Shown here one piece after another: positions 1-30,500 of a DNA stretch of 34,261 bases; the stretch's first letter is position 1, and each line of letters begins with the position of its first letter. Under the pieces are notes generated by a model. That model was not told the DNA's origin, searched no databases, and saw only the letters and a program-made list of their open reading frames with translations. The stretch is taken from positions 1 through 34,261 of IMG/VR virus record IMGVR_UViG_3300006922_000080; one strand, 5' to 3'. The position numbers and the translations under genes were made by a program. The DNA is from a virus.

Positions 1-102
1 ACAAAGCAAAAGCCATTGACCAAAACGCAAGCGGACAAGCGGACCAAAACGCAAGCCGCCAAGGCCAGTGTGAAATCCAACGCCAAAAGAAAAGCGGCAT
101 AG
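1..102 (+). CDS. C-terminal end of a basic Lys/Ala-rich protein (partial)
   Basis: Frame 1 is open from the left edge to a TAG at 100-102, giving 33 residues with no visible start. The peptide is rich in Lys, Ala, Thr and Gln. It holds a near-exact 8-residue tandem repeat (TKTQADKR then TKTQAAKA) encoded by a 24-bp DNA repeat. A strong terminator follows within 20 bp, which supports a real gene end. In composition it resembles the lysine-rich proteins at 20610-21576, but it is too short to assign. Function is unknown. Confidence 0.55.
   Translation, partial: TKQKPLTKTQADKRTKTQAAKASVKSNAKRKAA
18..56 (+). repeat. 24-bp period direct repeat in the partial basic gene
   Basis: The 15-mer GACCAAAACGCAAGC occurs at 18-32 and again at 42-56, 24 bp apart, so the reading frame is kept. 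It encodes the repeated TKTQA motif. Confidence 0.7.
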
Positions 103-2252: not shown

Positions 2253-2280
2253 TCTGTATCTTTGAAAGGATATAAAGAAC

Positions 2281-2568
2281 ATGAATTACTTTAACGCAGT
2301 GCTGGCACAGCCAGAACCATTCAAGTCCACTATGCTTCCTGAAGTACGTAAGAAGGTTGCCCGTGGTCATCTATCAAAATACAGCAAGGCTGAACAGAAG
2401 CGTATCATTGAACACGCTCTTGTCCACAAGATTCGCTTCGCTGACCTAGCCAAGCATTTCAATGTTTCGCTACCTACCGTCTACAACTGGCGTAGTGATT
2501 ACATGGTTGGCATGTACGCTGATGAGGTCATTTACAATCAGACAATAGCCTTTCGGCGGTCAGTCTAA
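2281..2568 (+). CDS. Helix-turn-helix DNA-binding protein
   Basis: A 95-residue basic protein. Residues about 52-74 (RFADLAKHFNVSLPTVYNW) form a clear helix-turn-helix of the type found in transposase-like and small phage regulators; the preceding SKAEQKRIIEHAL region looks helical. The site AAAGGA lies about 13 nt before the ATG, which is slightly long. It is the first gene after promoter C and has a full operator 28 bp upstream, so it is one of two candidates for the protein that reads the dispersed palindrome. Whether it activates or represses is not visible. Confidence 0.75.
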   Translation: MNYFNAVLAQPEPFKSTMLPEVRKKVARGHLSKYSKAEQKRIIEHALVHKIRFADLAKHFNVSLPTVYNWRSDYMVGMYADEVIYNQTIAFRRSV

Positions 2569-2586
2569 GTATGGGGTTACATGAGT

Positions 2587-2628
2587 CCATCGTTAGAGTT
2601 ATATGTAATATTTTTATTCTAACGGTGG
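2587..2628 (+). terminator. Hairpin after the HTH gene, possible weak terminator
   Basis: CCATCGTTAGA (2587-2597) pairs with TCTAACGGTGG (2618-2628) over 11 positions with one G-U. The loop is AT-rich, 20 nt, and only a short TTCTT follows. It may attenuate readthrough from the HTH gene into the MarR-int genes or protect an mRNA end. Confidence 0.45.
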
Positions 2629-2673
2629 TTCTTACATGGCTCAAAGTAATGTTATATTTCAACTAAGGTAGAA

Positions 2674-2940
2674 ATGAGAGCAATGTCAATGAAGACTAAC
2701 GATATTAAAAAAGGGATGAAGTTCAGACTAGCCAATGGCTGGTTTGCTGAGATGCTTGATAACAAGAAGGGTAACATCCGTCTTGCGAGAGTTGATGGGT
2801 TATATGATGAGGTAGGCTCTGTGTACGCCCATGATATCATTTCGTGTCAGCCAGATTCCACTGAGGACATTTGGCACACTATTATTCTCTCAGATAAACA
2901 GAAGCAACACGCCTCAGTTGTTGCAAATGTTTTTACATAA
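2674..2940 (+). CDS. Small conserved phage protein, probable beta-barrel fold
   Basis: An 88-residue protein. The pattern TNDIKKGMKFRLANGWFAE ... DNKKGNIRLARVDG ... EVGSVYAHDI recalls small early proteins of marine and enteric phages that look like short beta-barrels. A weak TAAGG site precedes the ATG at 2674; in-frame ATGs at 2683 and 2689 are alternatives. It sits between the HTH gene and the MarR-int pair. Function is unknown. Confidence 0.6.
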   Translation: MRAMSMKTNDIKKGMKFRLANGWFAEMLDNKKGNIRLARVDGLYDEVGSVYAHDIISCQPDSTEDIWHTIILSDKQKQHASVVANVFT

Positions 2941-2955
2941 GAAAGGGCTTATAAT

Positions 2956-3171
2956 ATGAGAAAAAGAATGAGTATCAAAGGTGATGCGGATTGGCCTACC
3001 GCGCCGCCACATAGCTGGTGGTATTTCACGGCGTTTGGATACGAGGTATATATAGATTACCTTTCCACTCGTAAGTTTTTGACTATTGGCTTACACTTAG
3101 ATAAGTCTAACAGTAGTGTAAATATTTCACTGGCAAAATTCTTTATAGTAACTTCCCACATTGTGGGCTGA
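2956..3171 (+). CDS. Small protein of unknown function
   Basis: A 71-residue protein with GAAAGGG about 9 nt before the ATG at 2956; an in-frame ATG at 2968 (MSIKGDADW) is possible. It has an aromatic N-terminal half (SWWYFTAFGYEVYIDY) and a hydrophobic C-terminus (AKFFIVTSHIVG), but no clear membrane helix and no family I recognise. Confidence 0.5.
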   Translation: MRKRMSIKGDADWPTAPPHSWWYFTAFGYEVYIDYLSTRKFLTIGLHLDKSNSSVNISLAKFFIVTSHIVG

Positions 3172-3211
3172 TTCAAGAGGGTTTGTCTACACCCCTCGAA
3201 AGGAGAATAAA

Positions 3212-3538
3212 ATGGACATAAAAGACCTACTCATGTGTATGGAGCAGTTTAGGACTCTCAATCCTAATATGCCCATACAGCAGTCACAGACGTTTCTGTA
3301 TATATGCCGACATGAGAATGACCCTGACGGTTTAACAATCAAGGACATTGCGGATGCCCTTGGTTTTTCCCATGCCTCGGCAAGTCGCAATGTTGCGGCA
3401 TTTACTGATTGGTCACGCCATAGGCGAAGCGGTCACGATTTAGTTGTTGCGCTGGAAGACCCAATGGACAGGTCACGGAAACTTGTAACCCTGAACGCTA
3501 ATGGTGTTCGTATGAAACAGTTATTGGAGGCTCTATGA
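3212..3538 (+). CDS. MarR-like winged-helix regulator, coupled to integrase
   Basis: A 108-residue protein from the ATG at 3212, which has AGGAG 6 nt upstream; the longer frame from 3161 lacks such a site. Residues 40-65 (DGLTIKDIADALGFSHASASRNVAAF) form a helix-turn-helix, followed by a wing (DLVVALEDPMDRSRKLVTLN, 77-94) as in MarR-family regulators, which bind short palindromes as dimers. It is shorter than typical MarR proteins (about 140 residues). Its stop overlaps the integrase start (ATGA), so the two are translationally coupled, as expected for a lysogeny pair. It is my first candidate for binding the 16-bp palindrome, as an inference from family and position. No classical CI-like repressor is present. 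Confidence 0.75.
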   Translation: MDIKDLLMCMEQFRTLNPNMPIQQSQTFLYICRHENDPDGLTIKDIADALGFSHASASRNVAAFTDWSRHRRSGHDLVVALEDPMDRSRKLVTLNANGVRMKQLLEAL

Positions 3539-4524
3539 CAATCAAACCAAGAGGTAAAGGCTGGCAAGCTGATATCTATGCAAATGGTCAACGTGCAAGA
3601 AAAAACTTTGATTTGTACGAAGATGCCATTGCTTGGGAAAAAGAGGCCAAGCAGTCTCTAAAGATTGGTCGCCCGTTAACCGCGGTTAACTCCATGGCAA
3701 AGGTAAATGGGTGGACACTCAAAGATGCCGCAGAGCGTACTTATGCAATGAGGTGGGCTGACTCCAAGTCAGAAAAGACCCATCTCATAAACATGAGAAA
3801 GAACCTCGATTATTTTGGGGATAACTGTCCGCTCCGTGACATAACAACAGAGACTGTAGATGACTTCATCCTACACCTAAAAACCACACGGATATCTGGT
3901 TCTACAATCAACCGTGTGCTAATGAACCTCTCTCGCATTCTTCGGACTGCGAGGGAGTATAATAAGATGTCTCACCATGTATTCATCCACAGACAGCCAG
4001 AAGGAGAACACCGACTGCGCTGGCTTACGGAAGAAGAGATGGCAATGATGATAGGACAAGCGGCAGAGATGGAATATGTCAATCTGCATGATGCTATGAT
4101 TGTTGCTGTTGATACTGGTGTAAGAAGAAGTGAACTAATGCGTATCAAGAAAGCTGATATAACTACTCAAGGGCTTGGTATTTGGGAGAGTAAAGCAAAG
4201 CTACCTAGAATTATACCACTGACCAAAAGAGCAAGGGCTATTCTTGAGAATAGAGTTGGTGACCCCTTTTTGTTTCCGCAGAAAGAGTTTATCCGCTCTG
4301 CCTTTGATAGAGTAAAACACCACTGTGGTTTGGGTAGTGATGTTGTATGGCATACCTTGCGTCATACGTTTGCATCCAGACTTGTTCAGAAGAATGTACC
4401 AATACAAGTTGTACAGAAGCTGATGGGTCATAAAACTATACAAATAACAATGAGATATGCTAAGATTAATGATGCAAATATGGTGAATGCCATAAGTGTA
4501 TTAGATAATATATCTGTTGAGTAA
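3535..4524 (+). CDS. int: Tyrosine site-specific recombinase (phage integrase)
   Basis: A 329-residue integrase that would insert the phage genome at a bacterial attachment site. It has an N-terminal arm-binding-type region (about 1-60, RGKGWQADIYANGQRARK), a SAM-like core-binding domain (about 60-165) and a catalytic domain with R197 (TGVRRSE), K220 or K222 in the beta-hairpin, H273-x-x-R276 (HTLRH), H299 (MGHK) and nucleophile Y308 (MRYAK). All expected catalytic residues are present. A tRNA-Leu gene starts 39 bp after its stop and is the likely attachment site. The start overlaps the MarR-like gene (ATGA). A perfect 16-bp operator lies in the coding region at 3675-3690. Confidence 0.95.
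   Translation: MTIKPRGKGWQADIYANGQRARKNFDLYEDAIAWEKEAKQSLKIGRPLTAVNSMAKVNGWTLKDAAERTYAMRWADSKSEKTHLINMRKNLDYFGDNCPLRDITTETVDDFILHLKTTRISGSTINRVLMNLSRILRTAREYNKMSHHVFIHRQPEGEHRLRWLTEEEMAMMIGQAAEMEYVNLHDAMIVAVDTGVRRSELMRIKKADITTQGLGIWESKAKLPRIIPLTKRARAILENRVGDPFLFPQKEFIRSAFDRVKHHCGLGSDVVWHTLRHTFASRLVQKNVPIQVVQKLMGHKTIQITMRYAKINDANMVNAISVLDNISVE
3675..3690 (+). promoter_or_regulatory. Operator copy 4 (GTTAACCGCGGTTAAC), fully symmetric
   Basis: A perfect 16-bp palindrome with GC centre, inside the integrase gene, where it encodes LTAVN. It could act as a roadblock that limits int expression. Confidence 0.8.
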
Positions 4525-4550
4525 ATTGTGACAATATGCGTGACAATTAA
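4525..4550 (+). repeat. TTGTGAC-type repeats, left side of the attachment region
   Basis: Two GTGACAAT elements lie 12 bp apart right after the int stop: TTGTGACAAT (4527-4536) and GTGACAATTAA (4540-4550). The same elements return at 4790-4824 on the other side of the tRNA. Repeats around attP next to int are typical of integrase arm sites; that role is inferred. Confidence 0.55.
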
Positions 4551-4563
4551 GCACCAAAACGGA

Positions 4564-4652
4564 GCGGGCGTGATGGAATTGGTAGACATACAGGACTTAA
4601 AATCCTGAGCCTTTTCAATGGCGTGGGGGTTCGAGTCCCCCCGCCCGTACCA
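4564..4652 (+). tRNA. tRNA-Leu (anticodon UAA), complete, with encoded CCA
   Basis: The acceptor stem GCGGGCG (4564-4570) pairs with CGCCCGT (4642-4648, G-U at the end), followed by discriminator A and CCA. The anticodon arm has a CAGGA/TCCTG stem with loop CTTAAAA, giving anticodon TAA. A long class II variable arm (GCC...GGC) is present, and a T arm GGGGG-TTCGAGT-CCCCC. No terminal base is missing. It lies just after int, so it is probably the phage attachment sequence (integration into a host tRNA-Leu gene). It could also be a working phage-borne tRNA for UUA codons. Confidence 0.93.
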
Positions 4653-4688
4653 AAAAAAGTAGACTTAAAATCGCGTGTAACAATCGTA

Positions 4689-4789: not shown

Positions 4790-4824
4790 TTGTCACAAAG
4801 TATTGTGACGGTTGTGACAATTAA
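4790..4824 (+). repeat. TTGTGAC-type repeats, right side of the attachment region
   Basis: TTGTCACAA (4790-4798), TTGTGAC (4803-4809) and TTGTGACAATTAA (4812-4824). The first two form a perfect 7-bp inverted repeat; the last ends inside the phage promoter. They mirror the elements at 4525-4550. Possible integrase arm sites or another regulator site. Confidence 0.5.
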
Positions 4825-4836
4825 TGGACATTATAG
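4820..4836 (+). promoter_or_regulatory. Phage RNA polymerase promoter, copy 1 (ATTAATGGACATTATAG)
   Basis: This 17-mer is repeated exactly at 7329 and with one change at 16101. It is identical to the T3 phage promoter (ATTAACCCTCACTAAAG, as I recall it) at 11 of 17 positions, including the 5' ATTAA, C-7, A-6 and the final AG; it differs at -8 to -11, the bases read by the specificity loop. Located 40 bp before the RNA polymerase gene, it implies self-amplifying expression. Confidence 0.8.
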
Positions 4837-4875: not shown

Positions 4876-7302
4876 ATGAAAGAAAATCTCTTAGATATTC
4901 AGAGAAAATTAGAAGCTGATATGCAGACCAAAGGTATTGATTATTACAGGTCTGAGGTCAGTAAGGCTGTAGAGCAGACCAACGAGTCAACTACCCTTTA
5001 TGGTATCCTTGCTATGAAGAAGTCGGTGGATTCTGTAACCAAGAGCATTGAAGATTTCCTTGACGAAGCCTTCACAGGGAAAGCTGGTAGGCTATCGTCC
5101 GCTGGACACCTATTGTCCCTTCTTGACCCTGAAGTCTCTGCATACTTATCGCTCAAGAGTGTGATTGACTCTGTATCCAAGAACCAAACGCTCACTAAGT
5201 GTGCGATGGGGATAGCTGGTATGTTAGAAGACCAGTTTAAGTTCTCAATCTTTGAGGAGAAAGAACCTCACTGGTTCAGGCGTATCCAAAAGGATGTCAA
5301 TAAGCGTACCAGCAATCGGTACTTCCGCCGCTATGCAATCATCCATACGATGAACAAGAAGGCACTCATTGACCATGAGCCTTGGAGCAAGCAAGAGAAG
5401 ATGCACCTTGGCTGTAAGTTGGTTGACCTTATCATTCAATCTACTGGTCTGGTGGAGTTAACTACACATACCTTTGGTCGAACCAAGCGGGTTCTATATC
5501 TAACACCCACGGAAAAGACTATGGAGTGGATTGATAACATCAACGCTCGTGGTGAGATACTTGCGCCTCGTTATATGCCTTGTGTCATACCACCGCGTGA
5601 TTGGACTTCACCTATTGATGGTGGGTATCACACGAGGCACATTCGCCCTCTCCCGCTCATCAAGACGGTGAACCGCCGTTACCTTGAGGAGATGGAGCAT
5701 CACGCGATGCCAGAGGAGTACAAAGCGATTAACGCCCTACAGAGGACTAAGTGGGCAGTGAACAAGCCTGTACTGGAAGTAATGAAGACAGTATGGGATT
5801 CTGGTGATAGCTGGGGTGGTTTGCCACAGCGTGACCCGTTACCTCTGCCACCAACGCAGTTTCCTAACAAACCAAAGTCAGAGATGACTGAGGCTGAACA
5901 GGTGATGTTTAAGGAGTGGAAACACGCCGCGGCGCGAGTACACCAATCTAACTCTAGGCTCACCAGTAAACGCCTACAGCTTGTACGTACTATGTCTATG
6001 GCGGATAGGTTCAAGGATTTTGATACGTTTTACTTTGTTTGGCAAAATGACTTTAGAGGTCGTAAATACGTTGTCAGTAGTTTTCTATCGCCACAAGGCC
6101 CAGACTACGCAAAAGCATTACTCACGTTTTCAGAGGGTGTACCCCTGACAGAACAGGGTATCTATTGGCTGGCTGTCCATGGTGCTAATTGTTTTGGTGA
6201 GGACAAGGTATCGTTTGATGACCGTGCTACGTGGGTCAATGAGAATACTGACTCTATCGAAGCGTGTGCTGAAGACCCCTACGAGAATAAGTGGTGGACG
6301 AAGGCTAGTGACCCGTGGATGTTCCTCGCGTTTTGCTTTGAATGGCGGCAAGCGGCTGTCGGTCGTATCTCTCATCTACCAGTGAGCCTTGATGGGTCTA
6401 ACAACGGACTGCAACACCTGAGTGCTATCAATCTGGACATGAAGGGTGGGGAGTCAACCAACCTTGTACCGTGCGAAATACCCCGTGACATTTATCAGGA
6501 TGTAGCTGACGAGGTAAATCAGGTTCTTGAGAGCCGTAAATCCCACGATGCTATGGCTCGTGATTGGTTGGACTTTGGTGTCACTAGGAAGTGTACCAAG
6601 CGGCCTGTGATGGTGGTTCCATACGGTGGTAAGATATATAGCACCCGCCAGTACATTGAGGACTATATAACTGACTGTGTAGAGGATGGTAAGCATTCCC
6701 CTTGGGGGCATGACCTGTTTGAACCAAGCCACTACCTTGCTGATATTGTATGGGCTTGTATCTCAAAGGTGATTACAGCCGCACGAACAGTCATGGATTG
6801 GCTTCAAGAGATATCTAGTATCGTATCGGCAGAGAACCTTCCAGTTATCTGGGAGACACCAACAGGTTTTCTGGTGCATCAGATGTATCCAGAGACACGA
6901 AGCAGACGTATCACAACCCACATTGATAACAGTCTTATCAAGCCACAGGTTCGTGAGCAAAACTATATGAAGTCAGACCGCCGCCGCGCAGTGAACGGAG
7001 CAAGCCCTAACTTTATCCACTCGTTGGATAGTGCGGCTATGACATTCACAATTAACAACTGCGTGGATGTTGGTATATCTGACTTCGCTATGGTACACGA
7101 TAGTTACGGCGTCCACGCCTCGCTCGTACCTAAGTTGTATGAGCAAACACGACTTTCCTTCGTGCGTATGTACGAACAGAATGATGTCCTTGAGCAGTTC
7201 AAAGGCTTCGCTCTTGAAGTAGTCGATGAAGTGCCTACCCCACCGCAAAAAGGTAAGCTAAATCTTTCCCTTGTGAGAGACAGTAAATACTTTTTTGCTT
7301 GA
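4876..7302 (+). CDS. Single-subunit T7-type RNA polymerase
   Basis: An 808-residue DNA-directed RNA polymerase (T7 gp1 has 883). It would transcribe the phage middle and late genes from the ATTAATGGACATTATAG sites. Key motifs: DFRGRKYVVSSF, catalytic D506 in SLDGSNNG, K575 and Y583 in TKRPVMVVPYGG (the 8-residue spacing of T7 K631 and Y639), and the second catalytic Asp D742 in MVHDSYG. The specificity-loop region after GFLVHQMY differs from T7 (Thr aligns with Asn748 and Lys with Gln758 by eye), in keeping with different promoter bases at -8 to -11. AGGAG precedes the ATG. A phage-type promoter lies upstream, unlike T7, where host RNA polymerase alone makes the enzyme. Confidence 0.97.
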   Translation: MKENLLDIQRKLEADMQTKGIDYYRSEVSKAVEQTNESTTLYGILAMKKSVDSVTKSIEDFLDEAFTGKAGRLSSAGHLLSLLDPEVSAYLSLKSVIDSVSKNQTLTKCAMGIAGMLEDQFKFSIFEEKEPHWFRRIQKDVNKRTSNRYFRRYAIIHTMNKKALIDHEPWSKQEKMHLGCKLVDLIIQSTGLVELTTHTFGRTKRVLYLTPTEKTMEWIDNINARGEILAPRYMPCVIPPRDWTSPIDGGYHTRHIRPLPLIKTVNRRYLEEMEHHAMPEEYKAINALQRTKWAVNKPVLEVMKTVWDSGDSWGGLPQRDPLPLPPTQFPNKPKSEMTEAEQVMFKEWKHAAARVHQSNSRLTSKRLQLVRTMSMADRFKDFDTFYFVWQNDFRGRKYVVSSFLSPQGPDYAKALLTFSEGVPLTEQGIYWLAVHGANCFGEDKVSFDDRATWVNENTDSIEACAEDPYENKWWTKASDPWMFLAFCFEWRQAAVGRISHLPVSLDGSNNGLQHLSAINLDMKGGESTNLVPCEIPRDIYQDVADEVNQVLESRKSHDAMARDWLDFGVTRKCTKRPVMVVPYGGKIYSTRQYIEDYITDCVEDGKHSPWGHDLFEPSHYLADIVWACISKVITAARTVMDWLQEISSIVSAENLPVIWETPTGFLVHQMYPETRSRRITTHIDNSLIKPQVREQNYMKSDRRRAVNGASPNFIHSLDSAAMTFTINNCVDVGISDFAMVHDSYGVHASLVPKLYEQTRLSFVRMYEQNDVLEQFKGFALEVVDEVPTPPQKGKLNLSLVRDSKYFFA

Positions 7303-7328: not shown

Positions 7329-7345
7329 ATTAATGGACATTATAG
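7329..7345 (+). promoter_or_regulatory. Phage RNA polymerase promoter, copy 2 (ATTAATGGACATTATAG)
   Basis: Identical to the site at 4820. It lies between RNA polymerase and the replication genes, where T7 also has class II promoters. The predicted first transcribed base is G7345. Confidence 0.8.
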
Positions 7346-7347
7346 TT

Positions 7348-7488
7348 ATGGAAAAACATATCGAAGCTCTTCTTGTATTTTACAAGATTTTAATCCACCG
7401 CGACTTAGCAGTTCCAGTGGATGTAACAGCCCGTCTTATTGAGGCGGGTATTGACTTAACCACGGTTAACCATAGGAGACAGAATTAA
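7348..7488 (+). CDS. Possible 46-residue protein (doubtful)
   Basis: A short frame ATG(7348)-TAA(7488) encodes a plausible peptide (MEKHIEALLVFYKILIHRDL, then VDVTARLIEAGIDLTTVN) resembling a helical pair. It ends just before the SSB start. The ATG is only 3 nt after the predicted start of transcription at 7345 and has no ribosome site, so it would be read leaderless or only from readthrough RNA. It may equally be the untranslated leader of the SSB mRNA. The operator at 7455 lies in the only frame compatible with this reading. Confidence 0.35.
   Translation: MEKHIEALLVFYKILIHRDLAVPVDVTARLIEAGIDLTTVNHRRQN
7455..7470 (+). promoter_or_regulatory. Operator copy 5 (CTTAACCACGGTTAAC)
   Basis: 15 of 16 match. 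It lies 110 bp downstream of phage promoter 2 and 20 bp before the SSB start, so a bound protein could block the phage polymerase before the replication genes. Confidence 0.78.
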
Positions 7489-10727: not shown

Positions 10728-12499
10728 GATTAGTATTCGACATCGAAACAGATGGTTTATTGGATACAGTCTCAAAAGTTCACTGCATTGTCGCTCGTAA
10801 CATAGACGATGACAAAGAATATGTCTTCGTTGGTGACGACTGTCGAGAGGGCGTTAAGTTCCTCGCAAGTGCAGATACTCTCATAGGCCACAACATTATA
10901 TCTTTTGATATCCCTGTTCTCCAAAAGTTATATCCAGACGTTGAGTTAACCGCGGTTAACTGGATGGATACTCTAGTCCTTACCCGCCTCATCTGGCCTG
11001 ATAGAAGAGACAGAGATTACAAACTATTCCGTAGTGGCAAACTACCACCAAAACAGATTGGTTCACACAGCCTCAAGGCGTGGGGATATCGTATTGGTGA
11101 GTACAAGGGAGAGTTTGGAGAAACGACTGATTGGGCAGAGTTTAGTGAGGATATGCTCACGTACTGTAAGCAAGACGTTGTTGTGAACTTGAAACTATAC
11201 CTCAAGATTGAGGCAATGAACTACTCACAGGATGCTATTAAGTTAGAACATGGCATCCACAAAATCTTAGTACAACAAGAGCAAGATGGTTTTCCGTTTG
11301 ATGAACGAGCGGCAGAGCAGTTGTTTGTTGTCCTAAACGAAAGAAGGCTTGAGATTGAGCGTGAGCTTATGGATAGCCAACCCCCGTGGATTGAAGAGAC
11401 TGAGTTTATTCCAAAGGTCAACAACAAGACACGCGGGTATCAGAAGGGAGTACCCTTCATCAAGACAAAAGAAATACCTTTTAACCCAAACAGTCGTGAG
11501 CATATCGCAAGAATGTTGACTGAAAAATATAACTGGCAACCAACTCTTTTCACTGAGACAGGGCTGGCACGGGTGGATGAGAAGGTACTTAGCGGTCTGG
11601 AATACCCAGAGGCTAGGTTACTGAACGAATCCCTCATGCTCCAAAAGCGTATTGGTCAGCTTGCCGAAGGTGCAAATGCTTGGTTGAAGCTATCGAAGAA
11701 CGGAGTAATACATGGGCGTGTTAACCACATGGGTGCAGTCACTTCGCGTTGCACTCATTCTAACCCAAATACGGGTCAAATTCCTAGTGTGTCGGCTCCC
11801 TATGGTCGTGAATGTCGGAGTCTTTTTCATGCTCCTTCCAATTACGTGGTCATGGGTTGCGATGTTAGCGGTCTTGAATTGCGCTGTCTGGCTCATTTCA
11901 TGGCCTTATATGATAACGGTCAGTATGCTGATATTCTTCTTAACGGAGACATCCACACGGCAAACCAGAATGCGGCGGGATTACCCTCACGCGACATGGC
12001 TAAGACATTCATTTACGGTTTCCTTTATGGGGCTGGCGATGAGAAAGTCGGCAAGATTGTGGGAAAAGGCAAAAAAGAGGGTGCAAGGCTCAAGCGAGAG
12101 TTTTTGAAGAAAACCCCTGCCCTAGACAAACTACGCAAAGCGGTCAGACAGAGCGCACTCCGTGGTTACCTTATTGGACTTGATAAAAGAAAGATGCCTG
12201 TTCGCAGTGAACACGCGGCACTGAACACACTGCTTCAGGGCTGTGGGGCAATCATCTGTAAACGATGGGTTGTCGAGTTTCACAAGCTACTAAACGAACA
12301 TGGCTACCAACAACAAAAAGACTACTGGCAAGCCGCCTTCGTCCATGACGAGGTTCAGGTCATAGTCAGGCAAGAAATAGGTGATGACATTGGACGACTT
12401 TGTATCGAAGCAATCAAACAAGCAGGGAAATACTACGGTTTCAGAATCCCCCTTGATGGCGAATATAAACTTGGAAGAAACTGGGCTGAAACCCACTAA
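10724..12499 (+). CDS. Family A DNA polymerase with 3'-5' exonuclease, T7 gp5-like
   Basis: A 591-residue replicative polymerase, shorter than T7 gp5 (704). The proofreading domain starts with D6 and E8 (VFDIETDG) and continues with GHNIISFDIPVL. The polymerase domain has motif A with D380 (GCDVSGLELR), motif B (RDMAKTFIYGFLYGAG) and motif C with H541-D542-E543 (FVHDEVQV). All catalytic acids are present. The length difference may mean a reduced thumb or thioredoxin-binding region; I did not map this. A perfect operator lies at 10945-10960 in the exonuclease part. The 3' end overlaps the next gene. Confidence 0.96.
   Translation: MRLVFDIETDGLLDTVSKVHCIVARNIDDDKEYVFVGDDCREGVKFLASADTLIGHNIISFDIPVLQKLYPDVELTAVNWMDTLVLTRLIWPDRRDRDYKLFRSGKLPPKQIGSHSLKAWGYRIGEYKGEFGETTDWAEFSEDMLTYCKQDVVVNLKLYLKIEAMNYSQDAIKLEHGIHKILVQQEQDGFPFDERAAEQLFVVLNERRLEIERELMDSQPPWIEETEFIPKVNNKTRGYQKGVPFIKTKEIPFNPNSREHIARMLTEKYNWQPTLFTETGLARVDEKVLSGLEYPEARLLNESLMLQKRIGQLAEGANAWLKLSKNGVIHGRVNHMGAVTSRCTHSNPNTGQIPSVSAPYGRECRSLFHAPSNYVVMGCDVSGLELRCLAHFMALYDNGQYADILLNGDIHTANQNAAGLPSRDMAKTFIYGFLYGAGDEKVGKIVGKGKKEGARLKREFLKKTPALDKLRKAVRQSALRGYLIGLDKRKMPVRSEHAALNTLLQGCGAIICKRWVVEFHKLLNEHGYQQQKDYWQAAFVHDEVQVIVRQEIGDDIGRLCIEAIKQAGKYYGFRIPLDGEYKLGRNWAETH
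10945..10960 (+). promoter_or_regulatory. Operator copy 6 (GTTAACCGCGGTTAAC), fully symmetric
   Basis: A perfect 16-bp palindrome with GC centre inside the DNA polymerase gene, encoding LTAVN. No promoter is seen nearby, so its likely role is to block elongation or bind a non-transcriptional factor. Confidence 0.8.
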
Positions 12500-14179: not shown

Positions 14180-16048
14180 ATGGACTCTTATCAACAATAC
14201 ATAGCAATATCAAAATACGCACGGTTTATTGAATCAGAAGGTAGGCGTGAAACTTGGGAAGAAAGTGTAGACCGTTACATTGATTACTTCTCAACAAAAT
14301 TTCCTGTGGCAAAGGCCGAACTCAAAAAGGCTTCTAAGTACATAAAAGAGCTTGGTGTTGTGCCTTCAATGAGGGCTATTATGACTGCTGGTCCAGCGTT
14401 AGACAGGGACAACATTGCTGGATACAACTGCTCCTATCTCGCTGTAGATGACCCCAAGGCTTTTGATGAGACACTTTATGTTCTCATGTGTGGCACGGGA
14501 GTCGGTTATTCTGTAGAGCGTGAGTTTGTTGAGAAACTACCAGAAGTACCCGCTGACATTCACGATACAGACGAAACCATTAAAGTAGAAGATAGCAAGA
14601 TTGGCTGGGCAAAGGGTATGCGTAAACTCGTAGCCCGTCTGTATGCTGGCGAGATACCTAAGTGGGACTTGTCGGGCATCCGCCCTGCGGGTGAGCGATT
14701 GAAAGTATTTGGTGGTAGAGCATCTGGTCCTGACCCATTAGAAAACCTTTTTAGGTTTACAGTAGGTATCTTCAAGAAAGCCGCTGGTCGTAAGCTAACC
14801 AGCCTTGAGGCACATGACATTATGTGTGCTGTCGCCGCGGCGGTTGTTGTAGGTGGCGTCAGACGTTCTGCAATGATTAGTCTATCTGACCTAGCTGATG
14901 ACAGGATGCGTCACTGTAAGTCTGGCAAATGGTGGGACGATAACGTGAACCGCTCTTACGCAAACAACAGCGTAGCTTACACCCGACAGCCAGATATGGG
15001 TGCGTTCCTACGTGAATGGACATCACTATATGAGTCAAAATCAGGTGAACGAGGTATCTTTAATCGTCAGGCGGCACAGGCACAGGCTAAGAAATCTGGT
15101 AGGCGTGACCCAGACCATGCGTTTGGTACAAATCCTTGCGGCGAAATTTTATTGAGAAGTATGCAGACTTGCAACCTCTCAGAAATTATCATCCGCCCAG
15201 AGGATACTGAGGAGACACTTACACACAAAGCATACATTGCGGCTCTTCTTGGCACACTACAGTCAGCCCTTACTGATGTAAGGTATCTACGTAGTTCTTG
15301 GAAGAAGAACATGGAAGAGGAAAGATTGCTAGGCGTTAGCTTCACAGGCATTCTCGACAATCCTCTAATGTACGAAGGTGAAGAGTTACCTGAGAGACTA
15401 GAGAGACTAAAGGCTGTTGTCGTTGATACAAATAAGAAGTGGGCAGATAAACTGGGAATCCAGCAATCTACTGCAACCACCTGTGTCAAACCAAGCGGTA
15501 CTGTTTCTCAGTTAAGCTCTTCTGCTTCTGGTATTCACCCACGCTATGCCAAGCATTATGTTCGCCGTGTCCGTGCAGATGTCAAAGACCCACTAGCTGG
15601 TTGGATGATTGACAGGGGCATACCAAACGAAGTGGATACCTACAACCCACTTAACCATGTGTTCTCGTTCCCTATTGAGTCGCCACAGGACTGTATCACT
15701 CGCAATGATATGAGTGCGCTTGAACAATTACACTTGTGGATGACTTACCGAACTCATTGGACGGAACACAATCCAAGTATAACCGTATATGTTTCTGAAG
15801 AGGAGTGGTTTGATGTCGGGGCATATGTTTACAACAATTTTGATGATGTGGGCGGAGTCTCATTCCTACCACGCGAAGATGGAAGCCATTCATATGTGCA
15901 AGCCCCATATGAAGAAATTACCGACTTGCAATTCAAAGAGCTTTCCTCTAAAATGCCAGAGGTTTCTTTCTCTGAATACCGCGAAGTAGATGATATGACG
16001 ATAGCTTCACAAGAGCTTGCGTGTACGTCTGGTGCTTGCGAACTTTAG
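14180..16048 (+). CDS. Class II (adenosylcobalamin-dependent) ribonucleotide reductase
   Basis: A 622-residue enzyme that would make deoxyribonucleotides from host ribonucleotides for phage DNA synthesis. C84 (YNCSYL) and C615/C620 in the C-terminal C-x4-C (CTSGAC) fit the redox cysteines. The active-site loop NPCGE (318-322) holds the radical Cys C320 and E322. KPSGTVSQLSSSASGIHPR is the phosphate-binding region. No small radical subunit gene is adjacent and NPCGE is class II-type, so I call it B12-dependent. It is shorter than the monomeric Lactobacillus enzyme (about 739). B12 use points to a host with cobalamin uptake or synthesis, which is inference. An operator, a terminator and a phage promoter follow. 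Confidence 0.9.
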   Translation: MDSYQQYIAISKYARFIESEGRRETWEESVDRYIDYFSTKFPVAKAELKKASKYIKELGVVPSMRAIMTAGPALDRDNIAGYNCSYLAVDDPKAFDETLYVLMCGTGVGYSVEREFVEKLPEVPADIHDTDETIKVEDSKIGWAKGMRKLVARLYAGEIPKWDLSGIRPAGERLKVFGGRASGPDPLENLFRFTVGIFKKAAGRKLTSLEAHDIMCAVAAAVVVGGVRRSAMISLSDLADDRMRHCKSGKWWDDNVNRSYANNSVAYTRQPDMGAFLREWTSLYESKSGERGIFNRQAAQAQAKKSGRRDPDHAFGTNPCGEILLRSMQTCNLSEIIIRPEDTEETLTHKAYIAALLGTLQSALTDVRYLRSSWKKNMEEERLLGVSFTGILDNPLMYEGEELPERLERLKAVVVDTNKKWADKLGIQQSTATTCVKPSGTVSQLSSSASGIHPRYAKHYVRRVRADVKDPLAGWMIDRGIPNEVDTYNPLNHVFSFPIESPQDCITRNDMSALEQLHLWMTYRTHWTEHNPSITVYVSEEEWFDVGAYVYNNFDDVGGVSFLPREDGSHSYVQAPYEEITDLQFKELSSKMPEVSFSEYREVDDMTIASQELACTSGACEL

Positions 16049-16053
16049 AGAGA

Positions 16054-16069
16054 GTTAACCGTGGTTAAC
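16054..16069 (+). promoter_or_regulatory. Operator copy 7 (GTTAACCGTGGTTAAC)
   Basis: Exact palindrome arms with GT centre (the reverse-strand form of the AC copies). It lies 5 bp after the RNR stop, 3 bp before a terminator stem and 31 bp before phage promoter 3. It marks the boundary between replication and virion genes. Confidence 0.82.
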
Positions 16070-16100: not shown

Positions 16101-16117
16101 ATTAATGGACATTATCG
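16101..16117 (+). promoter_or_regulatory. Phage RNA polymerase promoter, copy 3 (ATTAATGGACATTATCG)
   Basis: 16 of 17 match to the sites at 4820 and 7329, with C for A at -1; GG follows the predicted start G16117. It begins directly after the terminator T-run and precedes all virion genes, so it is likely the main late promoter. Confidence 0.78.
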
Positions 16118-20528: not shown

Positions 20529-20544
20529 GTTAACCACGGTTAAC
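20529..20544 (+). promoter_or_regulatory. Operator copy 8 (GTTAACCACGGTTAAC)
   Basis: Exact 16-bp copy between the capsid stop and the terminator, ending 9 bp before the terminator stem. The arrangement resembles the operator-terminator pair at 16054-16100. Confidence 0.82.
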
Positions 20545-27514: not shown

Positions 27515-30500
27515 ATGAAACAACAAGAAATTATTCAACTACGTGACCGTCTAAATCAGTCTGTTGCCCAAGACCTAGCTTGGTATGAGGTTGGCGGTGA
27601 TATGGCAAAGGGTGTCTTTGCTGGCGGTGTAGATGCCGCAGAGGAAACCTACCAGTTTACCCGTTGGGCGGCTGACAGTCTTGTAGAAGGTGCTGGGTAT
27701 GTTCTTGGACAAGAGTGGGAAGGGTTTGATGATGAAACAGAAAGACTGTTCTTTGAACCCCCTCGCCCAGTTACTATGGCGGGTCAAATTACTGAGGATA
27801 TCTCTCAGTTTGGTTTTGGTTTAGTTGGGGCTGGTAAATTAAAGATTGGCCAAAAACTTTTTGCAGGGTCAATTAAGGGTGCTACGAAAGCTGTTTCTAA
27901 AAAAATAGGTAAACCAAAAGAAGTCAAAGAGGGCGGAAAGCTAGATAAAATCTCAGCATCTGCTGGCAACTCAGCGGCTTCATCAATGATTGCTCACAAC
28001 CCTTATGAAGAGAGGTTGTCAGATATTGTCCAGAAAGTTCCTGCACTACAAAACCCTGTTACGGAGTTTTTACAGTCAGATGAAGATGATACTCAGGCTG
28101 AACGCCGATTAAAGATGGCGGCAGAAGACCTAATGCTAACTGGTCCACTTGAGGGTCTTTTTGCTATTGCCCGTGGTGTCAAGAGGGTACGTAAGGGTGC
28201 AGACTCTGTAGCTACAGAAAAAGAAGTTACCGAAGAGTTAACCACGGTTAACGCAAAGGAAACAAAGAAGCGTGTAGCCAAAAGTAATGAACACAAAAAG
28301 AGGGTCAAGGCGGCAGATAAGGAGCAAAAGGCTCTTGAGGAAGCTGGTGATGACATCTCAAAGGTAGACCTTACAAACACCATCGAAGTTATGGCTGACG
28401 ATTTGGATAGAGCATCATTCAAGGCTGGTAGGTCACGCCAAGATGTTCTCCTACGGGACAATAAAGGAACACTTGTACAAAAAGCAAAAGCACTAGGGCT
28501 TCCTATGTCTGACAAGACAACCAAGAAGCAACTTGCAGAAGCTATTGATGACAAGCTGTCCATGCCACGGTTCATTACTAGCAGTGGTACAACAGTTAAA
28601 AAGCTACCTGAAGAGGTTTCAGTAACACCATCTAAAACAGGCGTACAGAAGCCAAAACAACCAAAGTTATCTAACGCGGCACAGGTAAAGGCGTTAGTAG
28701 CTGGCGTTAAAGAGCCAAAGGATATCACTGAGGTATTTAGCGAAGCTAAAAATGTAAAGTTCTTTAATCGTACTAAAGAAGGTGATGTTCTTACTACTGA
28801 CTATGTTGATGATGTCGCTTCAGTGCTTCAAGAAACCATGAACGCGGCAAAACCTATGCTTGATAGAGTCCGTGGCAAACAGGGCGTACAAGATGTTTTT
28901 GAAGAGGCCGCAGTACGTGCATCTGAAATGACTGGGCTTACACCTAAAGAAATTATGAGTGTAGGATTCAGACATGCTAAATCTATTGAGGAAGCAACTT
29001 TTGCTGTACACGCGATTGAGTCTATGTTGAAGGAATCAGGTGAGCGTATGTATCGCTTGTTTGAAAACCCAAAGTATGACGCAGACCCTAACATCCAAAT
29101 CAAAGCACAATCTGAACTAGAAAACTTTAACCAGTTACTTGCTGGTGTTCAAGGCATCGAAACTGGTATGGGTCGTGCGCTACGTATGCGCCAAGAAAAA
29201 ATCTTTGACCTAAAGGCTCTTGATGAATCTGTTAAGAGTATGGGTGGTAAAGAGACACTAGAACAGTTCCGAACAGTCTTACGTGGCACTGGTGGTGACT
29301 TATCAAAGATTAGCAGAGCGGCGGCTAACATTAAAGGTCGCGGTGCGGTCTTCAAAGGTACGGCTATAACGGGTGAATTATTCCGTTCAATGATTCTGTT
29401 CAATATAAAAACACACGTAACGAATACCCTATCGGGCTTCACGGAAACCGTTTTGGTTCCTATGGAGAGATATGCTGGTTCTTACCTCATGCAACCCTTT
29501 ATCGGTGGTAAAGCCGCCCGTGAGATACGGGATGATGTTACATACCATTTAATGGGTTTGAGTTCTACTTTCAAAGACTCTATTGAGATGTCAAAAGCAT
29601 CTCTCAAGGCAGAGAGAAACTACCTTGACCCAGCAAACACAAAGCTGGACGGAAACGAAGTACAGAACAAAATAAACTCTTCGTTTGTTGGTATTAAGTC
29701 CGATACGTTGCTTGGTCGAAATCTGGACACTATCGGTAAGATTACTCGTGGTTCACTCCGCGCACTTGGAGCAGAAGACGAGTTCTTCAAACAGATTAAC
29801 TATCGCTCAAGAGTATTTGCCGATGGTATGCAAGAAGCAAAACTGAAGTTTCCTAATGACCCAAAGGCCGCACAAAAGTATGCACTCAAGCGAGTATCAG
29901 ATTCACTTGATGGTACAGGGCGTGGTACTGATATGGAAGCCCTACAGTATTCTCGTGAGATTACGTTTACTGAAGACCTACTGGATGGCTCAAAGGCTTT
30001 GAAGCTACAACAGTGGGTCCAACAGCACCCTTCGTTTCAAATCTTTTTACCGTTTATCCGTACACCAACAAACTTGATTGTTCGTGCGGCACAGAGAACC
30101 CCATTGGTAAACTTTGCATCAAAGCGATATCGGGATACTCTGAAGAACGGCACACCCGCTGAAAAAGCACAGATGATAGGACGTACCACTCTTGGTACTA
30201 CATTCCTTGGTGGTGCGCTTATCTATGCGATGGAAGGAAAGATTACAGGCGCAGGACCAGCCCTACCAGACCAGAACAGGCTTTGGAGAAACGCTGGTAA
30301 TCAACCGTACAGTATCCGAATAGGTGATGAATGGGTTTCATATAACCGCTTTGACCCTCTTTTTATGCCTGTTGGTTTGATGGCTAACGTGTTTGACATT
30401 AATAAACACATGGCGGGTTCTGAAGTAGAAGATGTATTTTCTACCGCTGTCTTTGCGCTTTCCACCACACTTCAGGATAAGGCTTACCTTCAAGGTATCT

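Follow-up and report, generated by a model that had tools for sequence, protein, structure and literature searches.

The window analysed here is a 34,261-nt stretch of viral DNA (IMG/VR record IMGVR_UViG_3300006922_000080). On its plus strand, a MarR-like open reading frame of 108 codons runs from the ATG at 3212 to a stop ending at 3538 and overlaps the integrase gene int (ATG at 3535, 3535–4524) in the tetranucleotide ATGA. Coordinates and overlap agree with the first-pass annotation, which had proposed the pair as a lysogeny switch of a T7-like phage, with the MarR-like protein as repressor. The MarR-like protein scores over the cut-off for Pfam MarR_2 (E = 2e-7) and matches phrog_9665 (E = 9e-26). 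Its AlphaFold model has a mean pLDDT of 89.7, and Foldseek aligns it with MepR/MarR crystal structures, including MepR bound to DNA, at E values of about 2e-5. The product of 3212–3538 is thus a winged-helix regulator of the MarR fold. The int product is a tyrosine integrase (Pfam Phage_integrase, E = 3e-24; phrog_1, E = 9e-58). Downstream on the same strand, 4876–7302 encodes a single-subunit RNA polymerase (RNAP; phrog_414, E = 6e-258), which confirms the T7-like assignment. The order is therefore MarR, int, RNAP, with MarR directly upstream of int. No CI- or Cro-like repressor is found among the early genes scanned against Pfam and PHROG, as had been noted before. The early region also encodes a GP88-like protein (PF17338, 256–1038) and a Pyr_excise-like protein (PF03013, 1303–1857), and both recur in relatives.

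The 14-mer TTAATGGACATTAT occurs in three exact copies on the plus strand, at 4821–4834 upstream of the RNAP gene, at 7330–7343 and at 16102–16115; the copies are kept in relatives, and we consider the motif a candidate promoter for the phage RNAP. A half-site, GTTAACCA, is found at 202, 1148 and 2121, at a fixed distance upstream of the -35-like motifs of three early promoters. It is conserved in the close relative G001 and not in the clade with 15-bp sites, so it is not essential. A promoter scan gave a result not clearly above chance.

The attachment region lies between int and the RNAP gene. Candidate Int arm-type repeats (TTGTGACAAT and GTGACAATTAA, 4526–4550), suggested by alignment of attP regions, precede a complete tRNA-Leu(TAA) (4564–4652, plus strand, ARAGORN), presumably a spare tRNA. 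The 11 bases at 4662–4672 on the plus strand, GACTTAAAATC, are a second copy of the anticodon loop of this tRNA (4594–4604) and form the predicted attP core; CTTAAAAT at this position is conserved in six relatives. Further putative arm-type repeats stand on the RNAP side, at 4795–4824. The window thus runs from int through tRNA-Leu, anticodon-loop copy and arm-like repeats to RNAP, and it shares its plan with an integrated T7-like prophage of 40.6 kb in G320, an alphaproteobacterial genome. In this prophage the RNAP gene is at the left end and MarR-int at the right. A 15-bp core (CAGACTCAAAATCTG) lies in the anticodon loop of the host tRNA-Leu(CAA), whose halves stand outside both ends; a complete phage tRNA-Leu(CAA) adjoins the right core, and the left end has no tRNA. 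The joined flanks, which represent the empty site, fold as an intact tRNA-Leu(CAA). A tyrosine integrase with a short tRNA core, as in tRNA-dependent lysogeny, is thus common to both phages (15 bp in G320; 11 bp, predicted, in the window). The other two features of that mode, a host tRNA that is not rebuilt and a phage tRNA of the same isotype, are found in G320, and of these the window shows only the tRNA-Leu(TAA). Pelagiphages HTVC119P and HTVC200P also carry the 11-mer between int and RNAP (L007 4129–4139 and L008 3966–3976), together with a tRNA-Leu(TAA), which suggests the same mode of integration. The G320 prophage (contig C1) additionally contains TGTTCCN6GGAACA twice (fetched coordinates 19755 and 54589, +58000), once upstream of RNAP and once within an early promoter of sigma-70-like type, in its spacer, as a candidate operator. 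With an integrated prophage of this layout and the same gene order published for LUZ100 and other phages (PMC10134795), the proposed role of the MarR-int pair in lysogeny is upheld, and the pair in the window is a further case of the MarR-int lysogeny module already proposed for T7-like phages.

The perfect 16-bp palindrome that had been reported inside int is present at 3675–3690 (GTTAACCGCGGTTAAC, codons 47–52, in the linker region), and it is one of nine TTAACCNNGGTTAA sites in the window. GTTAACCACGGTTAAC at 321–336 lies in the early leader or 5' end of the GP88-like gene, at the same position as in G001 (13027). ATTAACCACGGTTAAC occurs in the leader of the gene at 1303 (1236–1251; G001 14466, L031 1451) and again in the leader of the gene at 2281 (2237–2252; homologous in G001, G003 and G004). 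The int operator is kept in G001, L031, G002, G003 and G004 though the encoded residues change. CTTAACCACGGTTAAC at 7455–7470 stands just before ssb, and relatives that cover the region have a homologous site. A second copy of GTTAACCGCGGTTAAC, at 10945–10960, is inside the DNA polymerase gene (homologous in G001, G002, G003, G004, G005, L025 and L027), and GTTAACCGTGGTTAAC at 16054–16069 lies between the gene at 14180 and the terminator and phage promoter (homologous in G001, G002, G003, G005 and L027). Two more copies of GTTAACCACGGTTAAC are found just after the capsid gene (20529–20544; G001 and G002 have a homologous site, and in G003 and G005 it is found in ttA) and inside the gene for a 1224-residue internal virion protein (28237–28252; homologous in G001 and G009).

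Such an array is far from chance. Nine palindromes of the GTTAACCNNGGTTAAC type compare with 0.05 expected, and the best palindrome family of 30 Markov-randomised genomes has at most 4 copies. With up to 3 mismatches allowed, TTAACCNNGGTTAA matches 22 positions versus 0.9 expected, and none of 100 shuffles reaches 22. Contig L176 overlaps the first 123 bases of the window exactly and adds four operator sites, making at least 13. The operators are thus genome-wide, as the first-pass annotation had supposed, and more numerous than it had stated. Many sites are away from promoters, and several are inside genes that a T7-like phage transcribes with its own RNAP. No array site lies in the window between 2253 and 3674, nor between 3691 and 7454, the span around the candidate RNAP promoter, although MarR may have a site of another sequence there. 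Two other identities for the array were considered and rejected: the candidate phage-RNAP promoters look like TTAATGGACATTAT, and the repeats around the predicted att core, where Int arm sites would be, are GTGAC-type.

Relatives carry arrays at homologous positions with sequences of their own. Counts are 9 in the window, 12 in G001, 13 in G002, 16 in G395 and 8 in G400, versus at most 4 in randomised genomes. G001 (MarR 92% and RNAP 94% identical to the window) has all nine sites, and 108 of 108 core bases are identical, versus about 88% identity in coding-region flanks. Where RNAP identity is 75–81%, the array is GTTAACTNAGTTAAC, one base pair shorter than that of the window, and the sites keep homologous positions, namely gene leaders, the interior of int and of the DNA polymerase gene, and points ahead of ssb and the terminator. 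At 63–69% RNAP identity, the arrays are CGTTACANTGTAACG or TGTCTCANTGAGACA/TGTCGCAN1-2TGCGACA. The clade sequences among relatives are GTTAACT-N-AGTTAAC, CGTTACA-N-TGTAACG, TGTCTCA-N-TGAGACA and TGTCGCA-N-TGCGACA. In a loop of DNA polymerase, the residues encoded by the operator are ELTAVNW in the window but RLTQLTL in G003; in int, again in a loop, they are PLTAVNS in the window versus PELTELT in a relative. By these comparisons, the protein sequence in both genes has followed the DNA site and not the reverse, and the array sites are, as judged from sequence, functional. A DNA polymerase tree left undecided whether the CC-type array is ancestral. When 79 more distant MarR loci, many of them short, were searched for palindromes, no arrays were found. 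One 33-kb contig of the window's clade (L031/G009 C1) is binned in a Rhodobiaceae MAG, a weak host link; it was rejected as proof of a prophage, as only phage genes matched on it.

The strongest comparison is between G395/G397 and G396. G395/G397 have 24 TGTCTCA-type sites and no TGTCGCA-type site; G396 has 12 TGTCGCA-type sites and no TGTCTCA-type site. The sites are at homologous positions, and their flanks are 82–94% identical. G396 and G395 are otherwise close in several proteins (ssb 97%, primase 96%, HTH-2281 protein 87%; RNAP 99%, measured against G397). The comparison that decides comes from a single pair of metagenome contigs. In G396 the best single 5-mer family has 6 copies versus 5 in random sequence, little above random, since 15-bp and 16-bp sites alternate in this contig. 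These three genomes have 8–16 array sites each and neither MarR nor int. G396 spans the terminase, the left end, the early region and RNAP, so the absence of MarR and int from their usual place is real in this contig. This clade has no integrase, which shows that array and integration are not strictly coupled; an immunity role in the clade would likewise be independent of integration.

One early protein changes along with the array. The window begins inside a gene, lef, of which 1–102 (plus strand) encodes the C-terminal tail (TKQKPLTKTQADKRTKTQAAKASVKSNAKRKAA*); an identical tail is present in L176 through the exact 123-base overlap, where the full gene encodes 229 residues (L176:5568-6254). 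Lef, the leftmost early protein, is found in every one of the 12 contigs that bear an array and cover the left end, and it is the sole candidate for the protein that reads the array that was found in every clade. A tblastn search of 50,697 phage records gave no match to Lef, nor is there one in Pfam (above cut-off), PHROGs or PDB sequences, and no PDB fold match is significant. The whole-chain model is moderately confident (pTM 0.58), with an N-terminal domain of pLDDT about 90. This domain is predicted to be helical with an HTH-like helix and is followed by a basic, Lys/Ala-rich helical tail. The sequence of the helix (residues 101–113 in the window phage) changes with the half-site: WPKG[TK]LSTYR[AS] goes with GTTAAC, TPVWLRTMRSAI with TGTCTCA and TPSSLRDIRSAI with TGTCGCA. 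Lef of G395 (178 residues) and Lef of G396 (232 residues) are only 29% identical; five other short early ORFs of G396 are also without counterpart, and Lef is not the sole difference. In L176 operators stand at -217, -176 and -43 from the lef ATG. The leader in most clades has a near operator, 32–43 bases ahead of the start, together with one or two more distant ones at -131 to -245. With two or three operators around the lef promoter, autoregulation by Lef is probable. Together these observations suggest Lef as the most likely reader of the array.

The first-pass annotation had assigned the 16-mer to MarR, with the HTH protein at 2281 as fallback, and neither assignment stands up well in the relatives. 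HTH-2281 (2281–2568, plus strand; HTH_23/HTH_Tnp_1-like, Pfam E = 1.7e-5) is missing from the array phages G002 and L159–L162, and it is near-identical across the array switch, with one HTH residue changed; it was rejected. MarR was favoured at first, as it co-diverges with the array in the first relatives, and was dropped when arrays were found without it. It is present in the GTTAACC, GTTAACT and CGTTACA clades, and across these three array sequences its recognition helix stays almost the same, S-[HQL]-ASASRN. The MarR-int pelagiphages tested, with MarR about 35–44% identical, had no detectable array. MarR is thus probably not the reader. One could still regard MarR as a palindrome-binding repressor that forms, with int, a single regulatory pair, in which the operator 140 nt inside int shuts off int and RNAP while MarR stays on. 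Proteins of this family bind palindromes of such size, the predicted fold matches that of MepR on DNA, the three MarR-bearing clades all have arrays, the int site is conserved, and 2253–3674 is free of sites. Against arrays in G395/G396/G397 without MarR, pelagiphages with a related MarR and no array, and a recognition helix almost constant across three different operator sequences, we consider this reading unlikely. What remains of the switch first proposed is the coupled MarR-int pair, a phage built for lysogeny and the genome-wide operators, without MarR as reader of the 16-mer.

Each clade might instead have its own reader, MarR where it is present and Lef or a clade-specific early ORF where MarR-int is missing. 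The gaps of MarR and HTH-2281 are complementary across clades and several clade-specific early ORFs do exist, but array positions would have to be kept through a change of reader, and Lef, alone in being present in all clades, offers a single explanation; this seems to us slightly less probable than even the MarR reading. Least probable of the three is an array that serves not immunity but DNA organisation or partition, as with KfrA or ParB, with the Lys/Ala-rich tail of Lef condensing or bridging the genome. An HTH-like domain joined to a basic helical tail would suit such a protein, as would the autoregulatory layout and an array kept in a clade without integrase. However, many sites are in gene leaders, and immunity selection predicts that near-identical phages switch specificity in concert, which partition does not.

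We favour two modules side by side, with Lef reading the array next to a MarR-int-tRNA-Leu-attP unit, and give this full explanation a probability of about 55%. The first module would be the genome-wide array of 14–16 bp palindromes in early gene leaders, ahead of ssb, near terminators and inside int, the DNA polymerase gene and the internal virion gene. Lef dimers bound there would block both initiation and elongation, and any genome of matching specificity, whether resident or incoming, would have its lytic genes silenced, as in stoperator immunity. The array probably acts in a stoperator-like manner in immunity, and immunity selection would be expected to favour phages that have exchanged their specificity as a whole while remaining nearly identical otherwise. 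In the second module, Int would direct insertion of the phage at the anticodon loop of a tRNA-Leu gene in the host, and the phage tRNA-Leu would stand in for the disrupted copy. With integration, the RNAP gene would also be parted from the early promoters upstream of it. Control of this module probably falls to MarR, which is translated together with int. That Lef founds a new family of phage immunity repressors, silencing a T7-like genome through a palindrome array with a specificity that can be swapped wholesale, we put forward more tentatively, at somewhat short of even odds. If true, between phages with 99% identical RNAP every operator, those within genes included, would have changed its sequence to suit a new Lef. 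The G395/G396 pair opens to direct testing the old question of how the specificity of a repressor can shift in step with that of a dozen or more operators. The case also cautions against crediting the closest annotated repressor with the operators of a phage.

For strict lysis, T7-like phages are the model case. In their relatives, a stoperator-like array, integration with a spare tRNA and a prophage found in a chromosome together point to a temperate toolkit that was earlier guessed mainly from MarR-int pairs. In LUZ100 and other T7-like phages, the MarR-int-RNAP order has been described as a candidate lysogeny switch (PMC10134795), and Boeckman et al. 2022, as quoted there, proposed that MarR sites flank the RNAP promoter. 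The window is similar in having MarR directly upstream of int, followed by RNAP, with a tRNA-Leu nearby, but its nine-site array differs from LUZ100, which has only three palindromes, at P1, P2 and phi2. These are GCGCAN5TGCGC at 386, 587 and 6699 of L006, where two overlap host promoters, P1 and P2, and the third closely precedes phi2, and they may be a MarR operator; the searched text of the LUZ100 paper mentions neither these nor any palindrome or stoperator (PMC10134795). Two other MarR-int T7-like phages have five-copy palindromes, GTCACN6GTGAC in L014 (Pasto; 698, 8768, 8868, 11856 and 30078) and TCTCGN4CGAGA in L016 (YIMV22061; 7888, 10416, 14324, 14771 and 26758). Lef was not found in the LUZ100 and MarR-int pelagiphage genomes.

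The G320 prophage fits tRNA-dependent lysogeny as described for Fionnbharth and other actinobacteriophages, where a short att core lies in a tRNA gene, the tRNA is not rebuilt and the phage supplies a tRNA of the same isotype (PMC10865867). Unlike those, the phages here are T7-like, the prophage is alphaproteobacterial and the core is in the anticodon loop of tRNA-Leu. The closest parallel to the array is the stoperator system of the cluster A phages L5 and Bxb1, in which 20–30 repressor sites are spread over the genome, a minority of them at promoters, and the site sequence is clade-specific, co-diverges with the repressor and, with it, sets immunity groups (PMC6550527, PMC9283540). The window resembles it in having many repressor-type sites genome-wide, at and away from promoters. 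Cluster A stoperators, however, are asymmetric 13-mers that share one orientation, lie for the most part in short gaps between genes and are read by a monomer with an HTH and a stoperator domain (PMC6550527, PMC9283540), whereas the sites here are palindromes, several of them inside genes, Lef matches no known family by Pfam or PDB fold, and the phage is T7-like rather than a cluster A mycobacteriophage. An array spread over the genomes of T7-like phages, with sites that switch in concert and an orphan protein as candidate reader, amounts to a novel variation on the stoperator principle.
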